From NCBI GenBank assembly GCA_027487795.1, contig JAIYCX010000036.1:1-64000 (forward strand): a DNA stretch of 64,000 bases, written 5' to 3'. The notes below the pieces were generated by a model, which was not told where the DNA came from, searched no databases, and saw only the letters and a program-made list of their open reading frames with translations. Positions 55,607 to 62,950 of the stretch are shown here, in pieces. The DNA comes from Pseudomonadota bacterium (GTDB taxonomy: Bacteria > Bdellovibrionota_C > UBA2361 > SZUA-149 > DAOLCO01). The position numbers and the translations under genes were made by a program. Position 1 is the stretch's first letter. Every line of letters begins with the position of its first letter.

Positions 55607-56755
55607 TTACCAAGCCCCGCATTCTTTTCCTGTCTTAACTAACAGTTCTGCTACTTGCTCGAGGTCGGACTTTGGTGCTTCAGGGTAAATCGGTAGTGCT
55701 ACTGTTTGAAGTGCTGCAGTTTCACTTACTTTAAAATCACCTTCTTTGAAACCCATACTAGAGAAGCATGGTTGTAAATGTAGGGGAAATGGATAGTATA
55801 CCATAACTCCAATATTTGCATTCTTTGCAGCTTCAAGAAATTTATCTCTAAAAGGTATTCTAACAACAAATTGATTGAAAGTATGAAAAGAAGGAGATTC
55901 TTCTTTAGGAAGCGTTATCGCTAAACTATCTAATGTCCCTTTTGGTAATAGATCGTTAAACAATGTGTAATAGATATTTGCATTTTGTCTTCTTGATTCT
56001 ACCCAAGAATTTAAATGAGGTAATTTAACTTTTAAAATAGCAGCTTGAAGAGTATCTATTCTAAAATTTCCCCCAACGTATTGATGTTGATATTTAACGG
56101 CAGGATTTTGTCCGTGATTTCTTATTGAACTGAGTTTGTGAAATAATTCTTCGGAATTTGTTGTAACCATCCCTCCATCACCAAAACAGCCAAGATTTTT
56201 AGATGGGAAGAAACTAAAACAACCGATATCACCAATATTACCTACTTGTTTCCCCTCATAGGTAGATCCAATTGCTTGCGCAGCGTCTTCTATAACAGGT
56301 ATATTATATTTCTTTCCAAGTTCAATTATCTTATCCATCTTTGCTGATTGTCCAAATAAGTGAACAGGCATTATGGCTTTAGTTTTTGATGTTATTTTTT
56401 CTTCAATTCTTTGTGTGTCAATATTGTACGAAGTATCACAGATATCAACAAATACTGGGGTAGCACCTACTCTGTAAATACTACCAACTGTAGCAAAAAA
56501 ACTATAGGGTGTAGTGATGACTTCATCACCAGGGCCGATATCTAAAGCCATTAGTGCCATAATCAGGGCATCTGATCCAGAAGTAACACCAAGAGTGTAC
56601 TTTGAACCAATGTAGCCAGCTGCATCACATTCAAATTCTTGTACTTCTTTTCCTAGTATGAATTGTTGAGATTCGATAACGCCGCTAATGGCATTATGTA
56701 ATTCTGATTTTAAGGACTCGTATTGTGGGCGTAAATTTAGTAATGGTACTGACAT
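55607..56755 (-). CDS. DegT/DnrJ/EryC1/StrS-family sugar aminotransferase
   Basis: 382 residues, a PLP enzyme acting on keto-sugars. Start LLNLRPQYESLKSELHNAI; SGSDALIMALMALDIGPGDEVITTPYSFFATVGSI; IEDAAQAIGSTYEGKQVG; and the PLP lysine in CFSFFPSKNLGCFGDGGM. The set of dehydrogenase, epimerase and aminotransferase points to an amino-sugar (possibly 3-amino-uronic acid type, as WbpE with WbpA) for a surface polysaccharide. It is first in the four-gene cluster, so the promoter should lie in 56756-56925. Confidence 0.94.
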   Translation of the reverse strand: MSVPLLNLRPQYESLKSELHNAISGVIESQQFILGKEVQEFECDAAGYIGSKYTLGVTSGSDALIMALMALDIGPGDEVITTPYSFFATVGSIYRVGATPVFVDICDTSYNIDTQRIEEKITSKTKAIMPVHLFGQSAKMDKIIELGKKYNIPVIEDAAQAIGSTYEGKQVGNIGDIGCFSFFPSKNLGCFGDGGMVTTNSEELFHKLSSIRNHGQNPAVKYQHQYVGGNFRIDTLQAAILKVKLPHLNSWVESRRQNANIYYTLFNDLLPKGTLDSLAITLPKEESPSFHTFNQFVVRIPFRDKFLEAAKNANIGVMVYYPFPLHLQPCFSSMGFKEGDFKVSETAALQTVALPIYPEAPKSDLEQVAELLVKTGKECGAW

Positions 56756-56925
56756 TTAATGTTTCTCAATCGTCAAATTAATTAGGAATTAAATACAACA
56801 TTAATTCTGGCTAGTCACTCTATGATTATATATTTAATGGCCATGTGATTTTTGTTGTACTTTAGATAGGATTTTTATTTATTTTTTATTGTGTTTTAAT
56901 CACTGAATTTAGTTTTATTAAAAAG

Positions 56926-58548
56926 TTGAAAATTAAGAATTTCTTCTCAAATCATTTCTCTTTTAAGTTAAGTTTCATATCAATCTCATTAGCTATTTTA
57001 ATGCTAGTGGCTTCACAGTGGCAGTGGAAACGTTATCATGAAAAACTATTGATTGAGAAAGATTTTGATACATTAAAAAAGTCTATTTTTGATCAAGATA
57101 ATTCAGGTGCAATAGACATAACAGACTATTTAAATACTGATTTGTCGATTTTCGTCAATAAATTAGTCAAGATAAATGGTAGCTATGATTTTTCGAAACA
57201 GGAACTAATACTCAATCAGCGAACAAAGAATGGTCCAGGAGCATGGATTATAACTAAATTTCAGTCTGACGCTTCTAAAGAAGTCCTTTTGAAAGAAATT
57301 TATATATCTAGAGGTTTTATACCGTTCGCTAAAGCCAATTTAAGGAGTATCAATGATTTCAATTTCCAAGAAAATACAGTTTTTGGCATATTAAAGAAGA
57401 GTGTATCTAAAAGAAGTTTTTTATCTCCTGGTGCTGCTACCAATATTGAAAAAGAGTGGCTTTATCCTGATATTAAATTGATAAACGATAGTTTAGCAAA
57501 CAAGGATACAAGTAAATCTGTTATTGACGATTTTTTCATACAAAGAGTTGGTAAATCACCTCAAGGAGATTATCCTGAACAGGATATCAGTATACAAGTT
57601 CCTTCCTCGACTCACTTTTGGTATACTATTGAATGGATTTTTCTCGCAATATTTACATTATTTATATCTCTAGTTATACAAATATTCAGACCAAAGAAGA
57701 GGTCAAACCTCACTAGTTCTATGTCTAATATGATTAAATTTTTCTTCATATTTACTTTTGCTTTGATATCTTGCCTAGATTCTTCATATGCCATTACTGA
57801 TATTCCTTCAGTGGAGCAGAAAGCTGGAATCGTACAAAGACTTGGTGAAAAAATTGATTTAAGTCTAGTTTTTACTGATGAGACTGGAGCTAAATTACCA
57901 TTATCTAGTTTTATTTTACAAGATAAACCACTTATTATAGCTCCTGTTTACTTTGAATGTCCTAGGCTCTGTACCTTGACGCAAGAAGGATTGGTTAATA
58001 GTCTGTCTAGATTGGATTTAAAGTTAGGAGTCGATTATAAAATATTATCCGTAAGTATTAACCCCAGAGAAACGTCAATAATTGCAGCTAAAAAAGCAGA
58101 AAAATATCGTTCTCTTTTAAATTTTAGCAAATTTGATAAAGATAATTCTGCTGAAAGGGCAAATAAAGAGGGCTGGAAATTTCTTATCGGCGAACAAAAT
58201 AGTATAACTACCTTGATGGAAACGCTAGGTTTTAAGTATGAAATAGATAAGGGCGAATTCTTACATGCTGCTGGTATAATCGTTTTAACGCCAGATGGGA
58301 GTATCTCTAGATATCTTTTAGGTATAGATTATCCCAAAAGAGATTTTACTTTGGCACTAGTAGAGGCTTCTCAAGGAAAGATTGGTAGTTTAATTGATCA
58401 AGTTTTAATGTTTTGCTTTCGATATGATCATATTAAAGGTCAATATACTTTTGCAATTTGGGCAATTATTCGTATTGTCTCAATTGGCTTTGCAGTAGTA
58501 CTATTAAGTGCGCTTATTTTGCTAAAAAGAAAAGAAAACCTAGGTTAG
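56926..58548 (+). CDS. SURF1-SCO1 fusion, cytochrome oxidase assembly factor
   Basis: 540 residues in one uninterrupted frame. Residues 1-255 are SURF1: N-terminal helix, VASQWQWKRYHEKLL, VKINGSYDFSKQELILNQRTKNGPG, LLKEIYISRGFIPF and a C-terminal helix near 232-252. Residues 266-540 are SCO1/SenC: a signal-like helix, then YFECPRLCTLTQEGL with copper ligands Cys345 and Cys349 and His447 in FLHAAGIIVL, and a final helix. SURF1 aids haem a insertion and SCO1 delivers copper to the CuA site. In-frame ATGs at 57721 and 57730 could give separate SCO1. Start TTG 56926 has no clear ribosome site. It leads the oxidase operon. Confidence 0.85.
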   Translation: MKIKNFFSNHFSFKLSFISISLAILMLVASQWQWKRYHEKLLIEKDFDTLKKSIFDQDNSGAIDITDYLNTDLSIFVNKLVKINGSYDFSKQELILNQRTKNGPGAWIITKFQSDASKEVLLKEIYISRGFIPFAKANLRSINDFNFQENTVFGILKKSVSKRSFLSPGAATNIEKEWLYPDIKLINDSLANKDTSKSVIDDFFIQRVGKSPQGDYPEQDISIQVPSSTHFWYTIEWIFLAIFTLFISLVIQIFRPKKRSNLTSSMSNMIKFFFIFTFALISCLDSSYAITDIPSVEQKAGIVQRLGEKIDLSLVFTDETGAKLPLSSFILQDKPLIIAPVYFECPRLCTLTQEGLVNSLSRLDLKLGVDYKILSVSINPRETSIIAAKKAEKYRSLLNFSKFDKDNSAERANKEGWKFLIGEQNSITTLMETLGFKYEIDKGEFLHAAGIIVLTPDGSISRYLLGIDYPKRDFTLALVEASQGKIGSLIDQVLMFCFRYDHIKGQYTFAIWAIIRIVSIGFAVVLLSALILLKRKENLG

Positions 58549-58557
58549 ACTTTATTT

Positions 58558-59505
58558 ATGTTAGATTGGATTTTAGAAATATTTGATTTTATGCCAGTTG
58601 AAGCTTCTTCGTGGGCTTCTAGAGTGGATTATATTAATAATGTAATCACAGTAATATCTGTTTTTTGTACAGTTGCTATCACTTTTGTGATGATACTATT
58701 TGCATGGAAGTATCGTCGTAAATCTGAAAATCAAAAGACTGCTTATATAACTCATAATGCAACATTAGAGACTATTTGGACTATCATACCTACGATAATT
58801 TGTTTTGTGTTATTTTATTTTGGTTACACAGTTTATCATGAAATGAGAAATCCACCCGTAGGAGCAAATGAAGTATTTGTGAAGGGTCAAACTTGGTATT
58901 GGGATTTTCAATATGCGAATGGTAAAAAAAGTACTGGTGAATTAGTTGTTCCAGTAGGGGAGCCTGTTAAATTAATTATGACTTCGGCGGATGTTCTACA
59001 TAGTTTTTTTATCCCTGCTATGAGAGTCAAAGAAGATATGTATAACGGAAATTATTCTTATTTATGGTTTACTCCGACTTCTTCTGGAACATTTGATATA
59101 TTTTGTACTGAATATTGTGGGACGCAGCACTCAGGTATGACAGCAAAATTAAAAGTCGTTTCTAAGGAAGCATACAATGATTGGTTAAATGAGAAAAAAG
59201 ATCCATCAGCTGAACCAGTTTTGCCTGAAGTTACTGGAAAGGCTATATATACTGCTAAATGTGCTGCATGCCACTCCTTAGACGGTAGTAAAGTCGTTGG
59301 TCCTTCTTTCAAAGGTATATATTCTGGAGCAAAACATGTTCTTCAAGACGGAACAGAAGTTGTAGTTGATGATAATTACATTAGAAATTCTATAGCGAAT
59401 CCCCTATCTCAAATAGTTGCTGGCTACCCTCCAGTTATGCCTGCTTTTCAGCTAAGTGAAGATGAATTGATAGGTGTAATCAGTTACATGAAAACACTTA
59501 AATAG
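58558..59505 (+). CDS. coxB: Cytochrome c oxidase subunit II with fused cytochrome c domain (caa3 type)
   Basis: 315 residues. Two membrane helices (about 25-50 and 70-92) are followed by the CuA cupredoxin domain: GQTWYWDFQY, SADVLHSFFIPAMRVKEDMYNG and CuA ligands Cys183, Cys187 in CTEYCGTQHSGM. From about residue 225 a cytochrome c domain has CAACH at 235-239 and Met in PPVMPAFQLSEDELIGVISYM. It accepts electrons and passes them from CuA to subunit I at the periplasmic face. The fused haem defines a caa3-type oxidase. Starts nine bases after the fusion gene. Confidence 0.97.
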   Translation: MLDWILEIFDFMPVEASSWASRVDYINNVITVISVFCTVAITFVMILFAWKYRRKSENQKTAYITHNATLETIWTIIPTIICFVLFYFGYTVYHEMRNPPVGANEVFVKGQTWYWDFQYANGKKSTGELVVPVGEPVKLIMTSADVLHSFFIPAMRVKEDMYNGNYSYLWFTPTSSGTFDIFCTEYCGTQHSGMTAKLKVVSKEAYNDWLNEKKDPSAEPVLPEVTGKAIYTAKCAACHSLDGSKVVGPSFKGIYSGAKHVLQDGTEVVVDDNYIRNSIANPLSQIVAGYPPVMPAFQLSEDELIGVISYMKTLK

Positions 59506-59539: not shown

Positions 59540-61219
59540 ATGAGTAACGATACAAATCATCATACAGATAAACATTCAGGAGACGTGAATTATCTTAATT
59601 TTGAAAAAGGTTTCATGTCTTGGTGGATGTCAATCGACCATAAAAGAATCGGCTTAATGTATTTAGTAAGTATGATATTCTTTTTTGCTATAGGAGGTCT
59701 TCTTGCCTTGGTTGTAAGAACTGAGCTTATGAAAAGAGGTCAGACTATCATAGACAATGACACTTATAATATGGCCTTTACTCTTCATGGGGTAATAATG
59801 ATATTTTTATTTATTGTTCCTGGAGTACCAGCAACACTAGGAAATTTTTTATTACCACTAATGATTGGTGCAAAAGACGTTGCTTTTCCAAGATTAAATA
59901 GACTTAGTTATTGGGTTTATGTTTTTGGTAGTTTCTTTGCATTCTTAGCAATATATTTTAAACTTGATACTGGATGGACTTTCTACAGTCCGTATAGTTT
60001 GAGAAATGCACCTGCTGTTATGTCGGCAACTATGGCTGCTTTTGTTCTTGGATTTGCAAGTATTCTTACTGGAGTAAATTTTCTTGTTACTATTCATAAG
60101 ATGAGAGCCCCTGGACTTACTTGGGATCGTTTACCATTATTCGTATGGGCTACATATGCTACAGCTCTTCTTCAAGTAATTGCTACTCCTATCATAGGAA
60201 TAACTTTATTATTATTGTTCTTAGAGAACGCTTTTGGTATCGGTGTATTTAGACCTGATGTAGGAGGTGATCCTGTTCTTTTTCAACATCTTTTCTGGTT
60301 CTATTCTCATCCAGTCGTTTACATAATGATTCTTCCTGCAATGGGAATCGTGAGCGAAATAATTCCAGTATTCTCGAGAAAACCAATTTTTGGTTACAAA
60401 GCTATTGTTTGGGCTAGTGTTGGTATCGCTGCTATATCATTCCTAGTTTGGGGACATCATATGTTTGTCTCTGGGATGTCTGATTTTGTCAGATATTTAT
60501 TTTCATTTTTAACCTTCTTTGTTGCGGTACCTACGGCAGTTAAAGTTTTTAACTGGGTTGCTACTATATATAAAGGCTCAGTGGAATTTACTTCACCTAT
60601 GCTTTATGCGATGGCTTTTGTTTTCTTGTTTATGATAGCTGGAACAACAGGAATACACTTAGCTACTTTGGCAACGGATGCTCACTATCATGACACATAC
60701 TTTGTAGTAGCGCATTTCCATTACACTATCCAAGGTGGTGCCGTAATAGGATTATATGCTGGCCTACATTTTTGGTTCCCTAAAATATTTGGAAGGATGT
60801 ACAATGAAAAATTTGCAAAGATTGCTTTCTGCCTTCTTTTCATTGGCTTCAATGGAACTTTCTTACCACAATTTGTTCTTGGTATGATGGGTATGCCTAG
60901 AAGGTATGCAGACTATAGCACTTTTTCTAATGTCGATACTTTTGAGTATTTACACTTTATATCTACCTGCTTCTCATATATCAACGCCTTAGGTTACAGC
61001 TTAGTTTTAGTTAATCTAGGTTATGGTGCAGTAAAAGGCGTTAAGGCTACTGCTAACCCTTACAACTCTCTTGGTCTAGAATGGCAAACACCTAGCCCTC
61101 CTCCACATGACAATTTTGAAACAATACCTGTTGTTACAGATTGGAGTTATGGATATGGTGAGGAATATTCAGATCATGATCATAATGGAAATAAAAAGGT
61201 TGTAGCTAAGCCAGCTTAA
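59540..61219 (+). CDS. ctaD: Cytochrome c oxidase subunit I, A2-type
   Basis: 559 residues, twelve-helix haem-copper oxidase core. WWMSIDHKRIGLMYL, HGVIMIFLFIVP (haem a ligand), the CuB His and cross-linked Tyr in YSHPVVY (255-261), WGHHMF and HDTYFVVAHFHYTI. YSHPxVY in place of GHPEVY is the YS motif of A2-type enzymes, which lack the usual proton-channel glutamate. It reduces oxygen to water and pumps protons. A TATAAT directly before ATG is probably chance, because it lies within the operon. Confidence 0.98.
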   Translation: MSNDTNHHTDKHSGDVNYLNFEKGFMSWWMSIDHKRIGLMYLVSMIFFFAIGGLLALVVRTELMKRGQTIIDNDTYNMAFTLHGVIMIFLFIVPGVPATLGNFLLPLMIGAKDVAFPRLNRLSYWVYVFGSFFAFLAIYFKLDTGWTFYSPYSLRNAPAVMSATMAAFVLGFASILTGVNFLVTIHKMRAPGLTWDRLPLFVWATYATALLQVIATPIIGITLLLLFLENAFGIGVFRPDVGGDPVLFQHLFWFYSHPVVYIMILPAMGIVSEIIPVFSRKPIFGYKAIVWASVGIAAISFLVWGHHMFVSGMSDFVRYLFSFLTFFVAVPTAVKVFNWVATIYKGSVEFTSPMLYAMAFVFLFMIAGTTGIHLATLATDAHYHDTYFVVAHFHYTIQGGAVIGLYAGLHFWFPKIFGRMYNEKFAKIAFCLLFIGFNGTFLPQFVLGMMGMPRRYADYSTFSNVDTFEYLHFISTCFSYINALGYSLVLVNLGYGAVKGVKATANPYNSLGLEWQTPSPPPHDNFETIPVVTDWSYGYGEEYSDHDHNGNKKVVAKPA

Positions 61220-61248: not shown

Positions 61249-61881
61249 ATGAGTCATCACGAAACACTACCGGCAGGACACTATCATCACCTAGAACCTG
61301 AACAGGCCTATCACTCTGCTAAATTAGCAATGTGGATATTTCTTGCTACAGAAATACATTTATTTGGTGGGGCATTTTGTGCATTTGCTTTTTTTAGATG
61401 GAGATATTTCGATGATTTTAATCACTATGCTGGTCAATTAAATTGGCAGTTGGGGGCATTAAACACTTTAGTGCTACTAACCTCATCTTGGGCTATGGTT
61501 CGCGGAGTTGATGCCGCACAAAAAGGTCTTAATAAGCTTTGCGGTAGATGGTTAATTGTTACAATTATTTTAGCATTTGTTTTCTTTGGCATTAAAGCTA
61601 TAGAATACAGTACTAAGCTATCTCACGGTATATATCCTTCTACTCATATTTTTTGGGGGTTATATTATACTATGACTGGAATACATGCTCTTCATATCGC
61701 AGTTGGTATAGGCTTAATTTATTGGCTTTATTTACTGACAAAGAAAGAGCGCTTCTCTACTGTGTATTACACACCAGTTGAGGTGATTGGTCTTTATTGG
61801 CACTTAGTTGATGTTATTTGGATATTTTTGTTCCCTCTACTTTACTTACTAGGTGGAGTTGGGGCTGGGGCACATCATTAG
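61249..61881 (+). CDS. coxC: Cytochrome c oxidase subunit III
   Basis: 210 residues with five membrane helices. AKLAMWIFLATEIHLFGGAFCAFAFFRWRY, THIFWGLYYTMTGIHALHIAVGIGLIYW and VEVIGLYWHLVDVIWIFLFPLLYLL are typical. It is the short bacterial form lacking the first two helices of the mitochondrial subunit, as in caa3 and bo3 oxidases. It stabilises subunit I and oxygen access. It follows subunit I by 29 bases. Confidence 0.96.
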   Translation: MSHHETLPAGHYHHLEPEQAYHSAKLAMWIFLATEIHLFGGAFCAFAFFRWRYFDDFNHYAGQLNWQLGALNTLVLLTSSWAMVRGVDAAQKGLNKLCGRWLIVTIILAFVFFGIKAIEYSTKLSHGIYPSTHIFWGLYYTMTGIHALHIAVGIGLIYWLYLLTKKERFSTVYYTPVEVIGLYWHLVDVIWIFLFPLLYLLGGVGAGAHH

Positions 61882-61899: not shown

Positions 61900-62361
61900 A
61901 TGGAACATACTACAGAATGGAAAAGACTTGGTAAAGGTGACTTACCTACGGAAGATATGGATACAGGCTTAGGTCATATTGTACCTATTGATGTCTATAA
62001 TAAAGTTTTTGCTGCTTTAGTGGTGCTAACACTCGCCACTGTTTGGGCTGCTACTTTAGAGGTTAGTGGTACGGCACATATAATAGTTGCTATGTTTATC
62101 GCATTAATTAAAGCTGCTCTTGTATATGGCTGCTTTATGCATCTTTTATTTGAAAAGAAGATAATATGGATAATTGTCACTTATCCTTTATTTATACTTG
62201 CGCTTATGATTCTTGGAACAACAGGAGATGCCAGTGTAAAGAGAGAATCTATACCTTCAAATGTTGAAATCGAATACAAAAAAGGGAAAGGATTTGGTGT
62301 TAATGATGAATTTCTTCAAGCTCCGGATGTTAAAGAAGATACTGCACATTCAACGCACTAG
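61900..62361 (+). CDS. caa3-type oxidase subunit IV
   Basis: 153 residues. Three membrane helices (about 35-52, 57-78, 84-107): VFAALVVLTLATVWAATL, HIIVAMFIALIKAALVYGCFMHL, IWIIVTYPLFILALMILGT, matching prokaryotic cytochrome oxidase subunit IV, a small non-catalytic subunit. A polar tail of about 45 residues follows and is unusual in length. Strong ribosome site AGAGGA precedes ATG. Its 3' end overlaps the next gene by 35 bases. Confidence 0.9.
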   Translation: MEHTTEWKRLGKGDLPTEDMDTGLGHIVPIDVYNKVFAALVVLTLATVWAATLEVSGTAHIIVAMFIALIKAALVYGCFMHLLFEKKIIWIIVTYPLFILALMILGTTGDASVKRESIPSNVEIEYKKGKGFGVNDEFLQAPDVKEDTAHSTH

Positions 62362-62950
62362 TATCGTTAATAATAGTTTATTTTGGTATTTTTTATTAAG
62401 CTTATTTATTAGTTGTTTAACTAATAATTCTGTAGCTACTGAAGATTTAAAACTAATTAACTTAGGCCCAGCTCCGGTTATATCTGGTTTTAATCAAGAT
62501 AATCTGGAAATAAATTATAATCCTGTAACGTCAGGTGAAATAACACTAGTTAATTTTTTCTTTACTTCTTGTCATGGGCCATGCCCAATAATAATGGAGA
62601 ATGTTAAAAGATTACTAAACAATTCTAAGTGTAAAAAGTTAAAAGCCATATCAATTTCAGTTGATCCTGATTTTGACTCACCTAAGATTTTAAAAGATTA
62701 TAAAGAATCTAGGAATTTTGATGATCCTAGATGGTCTTTATTAAATTCTTCAAAGGAGCATATTAATAATCTTTTAAATAAAGGCTTTAAATTAGGTTCT
62801 GGAGCTAATTTTGCTGAACATACTGTTAGGATAGTACTAACAGATTCTAAAGGCGACATCCGAATTTTAAAGCAAGGGAACGGTAGTCCTGATGCTGGTG
62901 AAATGTCTCAATTAGCATCCGCGATAACTGAGCTATGTCCAGATAAGTAG
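62327..62950 (+). CDS. Second SCO1/SenC-like copper chaperone
   Basis: 207 residues from ATG 62327, inside the end of the subunit IV gene; an upstream frame start at 62261 would add 22 charged residues and is less likely. After a short leader comes a membrane anchor (SLFWYFLLSLFISCLTNNSVA), then TLVNFFFTSCHGPCPIIMENV with Cys82 and Cys86 and the third ligand His165 in NFAEHTVRIVL. These are the SCO1 copper ligands. It loads or reduces CuA of subunit II. It is the second SCO in this operon, the first being fused to SURF1. Confidence 0.93.
   Translation: MLKKILHIQRTSIVNNSLFWYFLLSLFISCLTNNSVATEDLKLINLGPAPVISGFNQDNLEINYNPVTSGEITLVNFFFTSCHGPCPIIMENVKRLLNNSKCKKLKAISISVDPDFDSPKILKDYKESRNFDDPRWSLLNSSKEHINNLLNKGFKLGSGANFAEHTVRIVLTDSKGDIRILKQGNGSPDAGEMSQLASAITELCPDK

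Follow-up and report, generated by a model that had tools for sequence, protein, structure and literature searches.

Is a SURF1 protein that runs without interruption into a SCO protein one working unit, or are two proteins made from one gene? SURF1 handles haem and SCO handles copper in building cytochrome c oxidase. Gene fusions often flag proteins which act together, and a SURF1–SCO fusion ties the haem branch of oxidase assembly to the copper branch, two topics usually investigated separately. The fate of the chain, cleaved or left whole, is a direct test of whether both factors must share the same place. Here we examined such a frame in a stretch of 64,000 nucleotides of contig JAIYCX010000036.1, the window.

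All features lie on the forward strand. Translation of 56926–58548 gave a single stop-free open frame of 540 residues with a TTG start and a stop codon at 58546-58548; this agreed with the preliminary description, which had claimed that no stop separates SURF1 from SCO. The nearest upstream in-frame stop is at 56863. TTG 56926 is most likely the start of the fused gene because it aligns with the ATG starts of the relatives and because the next in-frame ATG (57001) falls within the first membrane helix. The joint comprises residues 254-269 (57685..57732). It is basic and carries two in-frame ATGs at 57721 and 57730 (residues 266 and 269), both correctly seen before; frame 0 has no stop here. 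According to the hydrophobic segments it is cytoplasmic and lies between two membrane helices, so the topology proposed earlier holds. Beside the internal ATGs the two other frames are closed by stops, at 57714 and 57731.

The phylum sample consisted of 46 genomes, 15 of which belong to the order of the window's genome (G000). The search of relatives suggested in the preliminary description uncovered a second case, and two of the ten SURF1-bearing order members, the window's genome and G001, thus have the fusion. The G001 protein of 541 amino acids is encoded in one continuous frame on MAG contig JAKPSH010000021.1, an independent assembly. In seven order genomes (G004, G007, G009, G010, G011, G012 and G014) SURF1 is followed by a separate, adjacent SCO with stops between them, and in G005 SURF1 is on a different contig. 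The gap from the SURF1 stop to the SCO ATG is short in three relatives (about 2-30 nucleotides; 2 bases in G007). Therefore, losing one stop suffices to fuse the genes. Seemingly shared long frames in G004, G009 and G011 were rejected as fusions because stops lie between the genes.

Could an assembly or sequencing artefact have produced the frame? A base lost or gained near the joint would hide a stop, and the genes would be separate as in the relatives. With the stops at 57714 and 57731 one indel would indeed yield a normal gene pair, and the draft genome comes in 71 contigs. Yet the SURF1 homology stays in frame up to the joint, which confines an error to about 30-50 bases without long homopolymers, and the same fusion is found in the independent G001 assembly. 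We regard an artefact as very improbable.

The survey covered relatives of this SCO subtype and a small sample from other phyla. Adjacent SURF1 and SCO genes were not found outside the order. Among 383 genomes, 47 of them with SURF1, the other SURF1 frames were too short for both domains, bar one very long frame without SCO. The 74 loci from named genomes contained no further fusion besides G001's own record JAKPSH010000021.1. Three long frames were examined and discarded: a SURF1 frame of 1052 amino acids in the distant genome G289 and a SCO frame of 540 amino acids (L086) look like chance open frames without a SCO and a SURF1 match, respectively, and a frame of 406 amino acids in G040 has SURF1 only. 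In a Dadabacteria MAG (CSP1-2; L113:908-1791) two overlapping frames make up the SCO homolog, which may reflect a frameshift or a sequencing error.

The fused gene was said to head an oxidase operon, and the downstream matches bear this out. It is followed by cytochrome c oxidase subunit II with a C-terminal cytochrome c domain, i.e. of the caa3 type (58558..59505; TIGR02866, PF00116, PF00034), subunit I (59540..61219; TIGR02891, E=1e-197), subunit III (61249..61881; NF050119, PF00510) and the caa3-type subunit IV (61900..62361; TIGR02229, PF03626). A second, ordinary SCO (62261..62950; PF02630, E=1.5e-12) closes the operon. The first 101 bases of its frame are shared with the end of the subunit IV gene, which is read in a different frame, and the true start of this SCO is probably downstream of 62261. 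The fused gene is the sole SURF1 found in the window's genome, which is 91% complete. The genome also has a haem A synthase, and together with SURF1 this indicates that the haem-a oxidase pathway is present. One signal peptidase I was found. A gene which by its sequence resembles DegT-type aminotransferases (55607-56755 in the window; L034, L033) adjoins SURF1 or SCO in the window, G005 and G010.

The SURF1 half comprises residues 1-258 (56926..57699), as delimited by PF02104, alignment, hydrophobic segments and fold. PF02104 matched residues 22-242 with E=6.6e-14 and about 53-56 bits (53.2 against a cut-off of 23.4). Helix 1 (residues 11-29; 56956-57012) and helix 2 (residues 235-253; 57628-57684) enclose a periplasmic beta domain; the earlier assignment of a complete SURF1 with two helices is confirmed. 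His230 (57613-57615), beside helix 2, is conserved in the alignment with relatives within a common THFxYTIEW motif. In the window (57610-57639) this reads THFWYTIEW; W replaces the G of the aligned relatives. Thus, the half shares with the SURF1 family (PF02104; Surf1c of Paracoccus denitrificans) the two helices flanking a periplasmic domain, the conserved His after the domain and a gene position with the oxidase genes, and by this likeness it would act on haem. It differs in that SCO is fused to its C-terminus and in its score, the lowest of the phylum's SURF1 matches; full-length others reached about 94-128 bits.

The identity of the second half is less obvious at first sight, as PF02630 alone scored 13.1 bits, below the cut-off of 22.8. 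Low scores were also obtained with most SCO homologs of the order; several pass, including the fused SCO of G001. The identification relies on other evidence. The SCO half is about 45% identical to the SCO genes of the relatives, and its sequence matches 3me7, the Aquifex Sco aq_2194, with 9e-10. In the AlphaFold model the thioredoxin fold of the SCO half has a pLDDT mostly >90, and the top fold match in the PDB is again 3me7 (TM 0.87 over the target), with BsSco, human SCO1 and other Sco proteins among the top matches. The thioredoxin-fold mature part (57793..58545) was delimited by residues, hydrophobic segments and sequence and fold matches. It contains the CxxxC motif with Cys345 (57958-57960) and Cys349 (57970-57972), the distal His447 (58264-58266) and a hydrophobic C-terminal membrane helix (residues 514-532; 58465-58521). 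Judged by sequence and model the second half is a complete SCO despite the sub-threshold profile score, and presumably it has a role in copper delivery. The model also matched some Tetrahymena complex IV chains over about 300 columns.

A complete SCO had been described before, including both cysteines, the histidine and the trailing helix, all of which are present. The 'own leading helix', however, does not appear to be a plain membrane anchor. As far as can be read from the sequence it is a Sec signal peptide (residues 266-289; 57721..57792) with a conserved cleavage-site position, and a signal peptidase I site is predicted after Ala289. A cleavable-type site with small residues at -1 and -3 past a hydrophobic leader was present in 62 of 63 unfused SCO homologs, and nearly all scored SCO proteins have the C-terminal membrane helix. 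Ala289 is invariant across nine aligned proteins. It precedes the copper motif by exactly 50 residues, and the spacing from site to motif is likewise 50 residues in five of seven unfused order members. The SCO half is thus built like that of its unfused relatives, with signal peptide and C-terminal helix, a subtype of the SCO/SenC/PrrC chaperones whose nearest structure is 3me7 and with which it shares the CxxxC, the distal His and the thioredoxin fold. What differs is that the signal peptide is internal, behind SURF1.

The site of the window protein, Ser-Tyr-Ala, is a weaker version. With a matrix trained on the unfused homologs it was outside the top six positions of the protein, whereas the G001 site was second of all positions. 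The low rank is due to Ser at -3 and unusual residues ahead of it. In addition, a lipobox-like LISC is found at residues 280-283, a motif which occurs in one of the 63 unfused leaders, and signal peptidase II could cut there instead of at Ala289. In either case the cut would part SCO from SURF1. The AlphaFold model has a helix at 264-283 followed by a low-confidence stretch, residues 284-296, which probably is flexible.

We therefore asked which product the fused gene is expected to yield. On balance we lean towards a real fusion whose product is a polyprotein that bears the SCO signal peptide internally. Signal peptidase would probably divide it into SURF1 and a SCO which its C-terminal helix anchors in the membrane. 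By in-frame fusion SURF1 would have been joined to the neighbouring assembly gene, which encodes a SCO with a signal peptide and a C-terminal anchor. The chain would start with SURF1 helix 1, continue with the periplasmic haem-a domain, return to the cytoplasm with helix 2 and form a short basic loop. Behind this loop the SCO signal peptide would re-enter the Sec machinery, and signal peptidase most likely would cut at or near Ala289. SURF1 would then be left with an additional membrane stub, and the mature SCO would stay in place through the helix at its C-terminus. The position of the signal-peptide site, which is that of unfused relatives, and the C-terminal anchor suggest that the second half can be set free as an ordinary SCO. 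A possible benefit is that both factors would be made in a fixed ratio and delivered together from the first gene of the operon. A precedent is FbcH of Bradyrhizobium japonicum, a cytochrome b/c1 polyprotein whose internal signal peptide is cleaved post-translationally. Similarly, one gene would specify two respiratory membrane proteins parted by an internal signal peptide; FbcH, however, consists of oxidoreductase subunits whereas SURF1 and SCO are assembly factors. If the chain is cut, it adds to the respiratory polyproteins of bacteria in which a signal peptide lies inside the chain.

The internal ATGs, which had been taken to leave open a separate SCO, permit another reading. The fused chain may be made while most functional SCO originates from ATG 57721 or 57730, and the fusion would be neutral read-through. 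Both ATGs are ahead of the full signal peptide, and in some relatives the SURF1 stop and the SCO start are near each other. On the other hand, SURF1 could be made only as a fusion as frame 0 has no stop, and G001 lacks any ATG, GTG or TTG able to start the whole SCO leader; its only in-frame start falls halfway through the signal peptide. No recognisable ribosome site precedes 57721 or 57730, though this is uninformative in this genome: in the window, Shine-Dalgarno-like matches upstream of 54 gene starts, mechanically set at the first ATG, were no commoner than at random positions, and translation in this genome may be initiated by other signals. Taken together, we consider dual products improbable.

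What if the chain remains uncut? It would be a four-helix, two-domain membrane protein through which the chaperones for haem a and CuA copper reach the nascent oxidase together. The frame is continuous, the topology is consistent, haem and copper go into the same enzyme, and the fusion is present in two lineages. SURF1, however, serves oxidase subunit I and SCO serves subunit II. Further, the SCO leader has retained the cleavage-site position of the unfused relatives, it is not needed as an anchor because SCO has its own at the C-terminus, and with two of ten SURF1-bearing order members fused this is not a conserved design. An uncut product is possible, but we hold it to be unlikely. The more specific idea that such a bifunctional factor links the insertion of haem a and CuA temporally and spatially, and arose twice in one order, appears doubtful to us. 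Joint delivery of haem and copper by one polypeptide, as put forward in the preliminary description, accordingly is conceivable and unsupported; the SCO half has kept its signal-peptide site position and its own anchor.

Next, the relationship between the two fusions was considered. In a tree of SURF1, SCO, COX1 and COX2 the window's genome and G001 were apart, and they were united in none of 200 bootstrap trees. The AU test against uniting them gave p=0.041. In the SCO tree the window's SCO paired with the unfused one of G010 (91/88), a pairing absent from the combined tree. Probably there were two independent fusions, which is the simpler reading; on these trees a single common origin is disfavoured.

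The literature searched, which lacked most subscription journals, contained no prior report of a SURF1–SCO fusion. Likewise, a term search of a review on the proteins that assemble bacterial oxidases retrieved no such fusion; the review mentions fused CtaA–CtaB haem synthases and CcsB–CcsA and states that the mechanism of haem a insertion and the role of SURF1 are still unclear (PMC9145763). The SURF1–SCO fusion is comparable in that oxidase or cytochrome biogenesis proteins are joined in one polypeptide in some bacteria. In CtaA–CtaB and CcsB–CcsA, however, integral membrane proteins of one pathway are united, whereas here a haem factor is combined with a copper factor and an internal signal peptide. 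We consider the fusion as real and of modest novelty; its product most likely is a polyprotein that undergoes processing.

The G001 operon shows another fusion. Oxidase subunits I and III are joined in one frame of 758 amino acids (L131:974-3247; G001:C12); in other order members with a COX3 match its frames have 195-228 amino acids.
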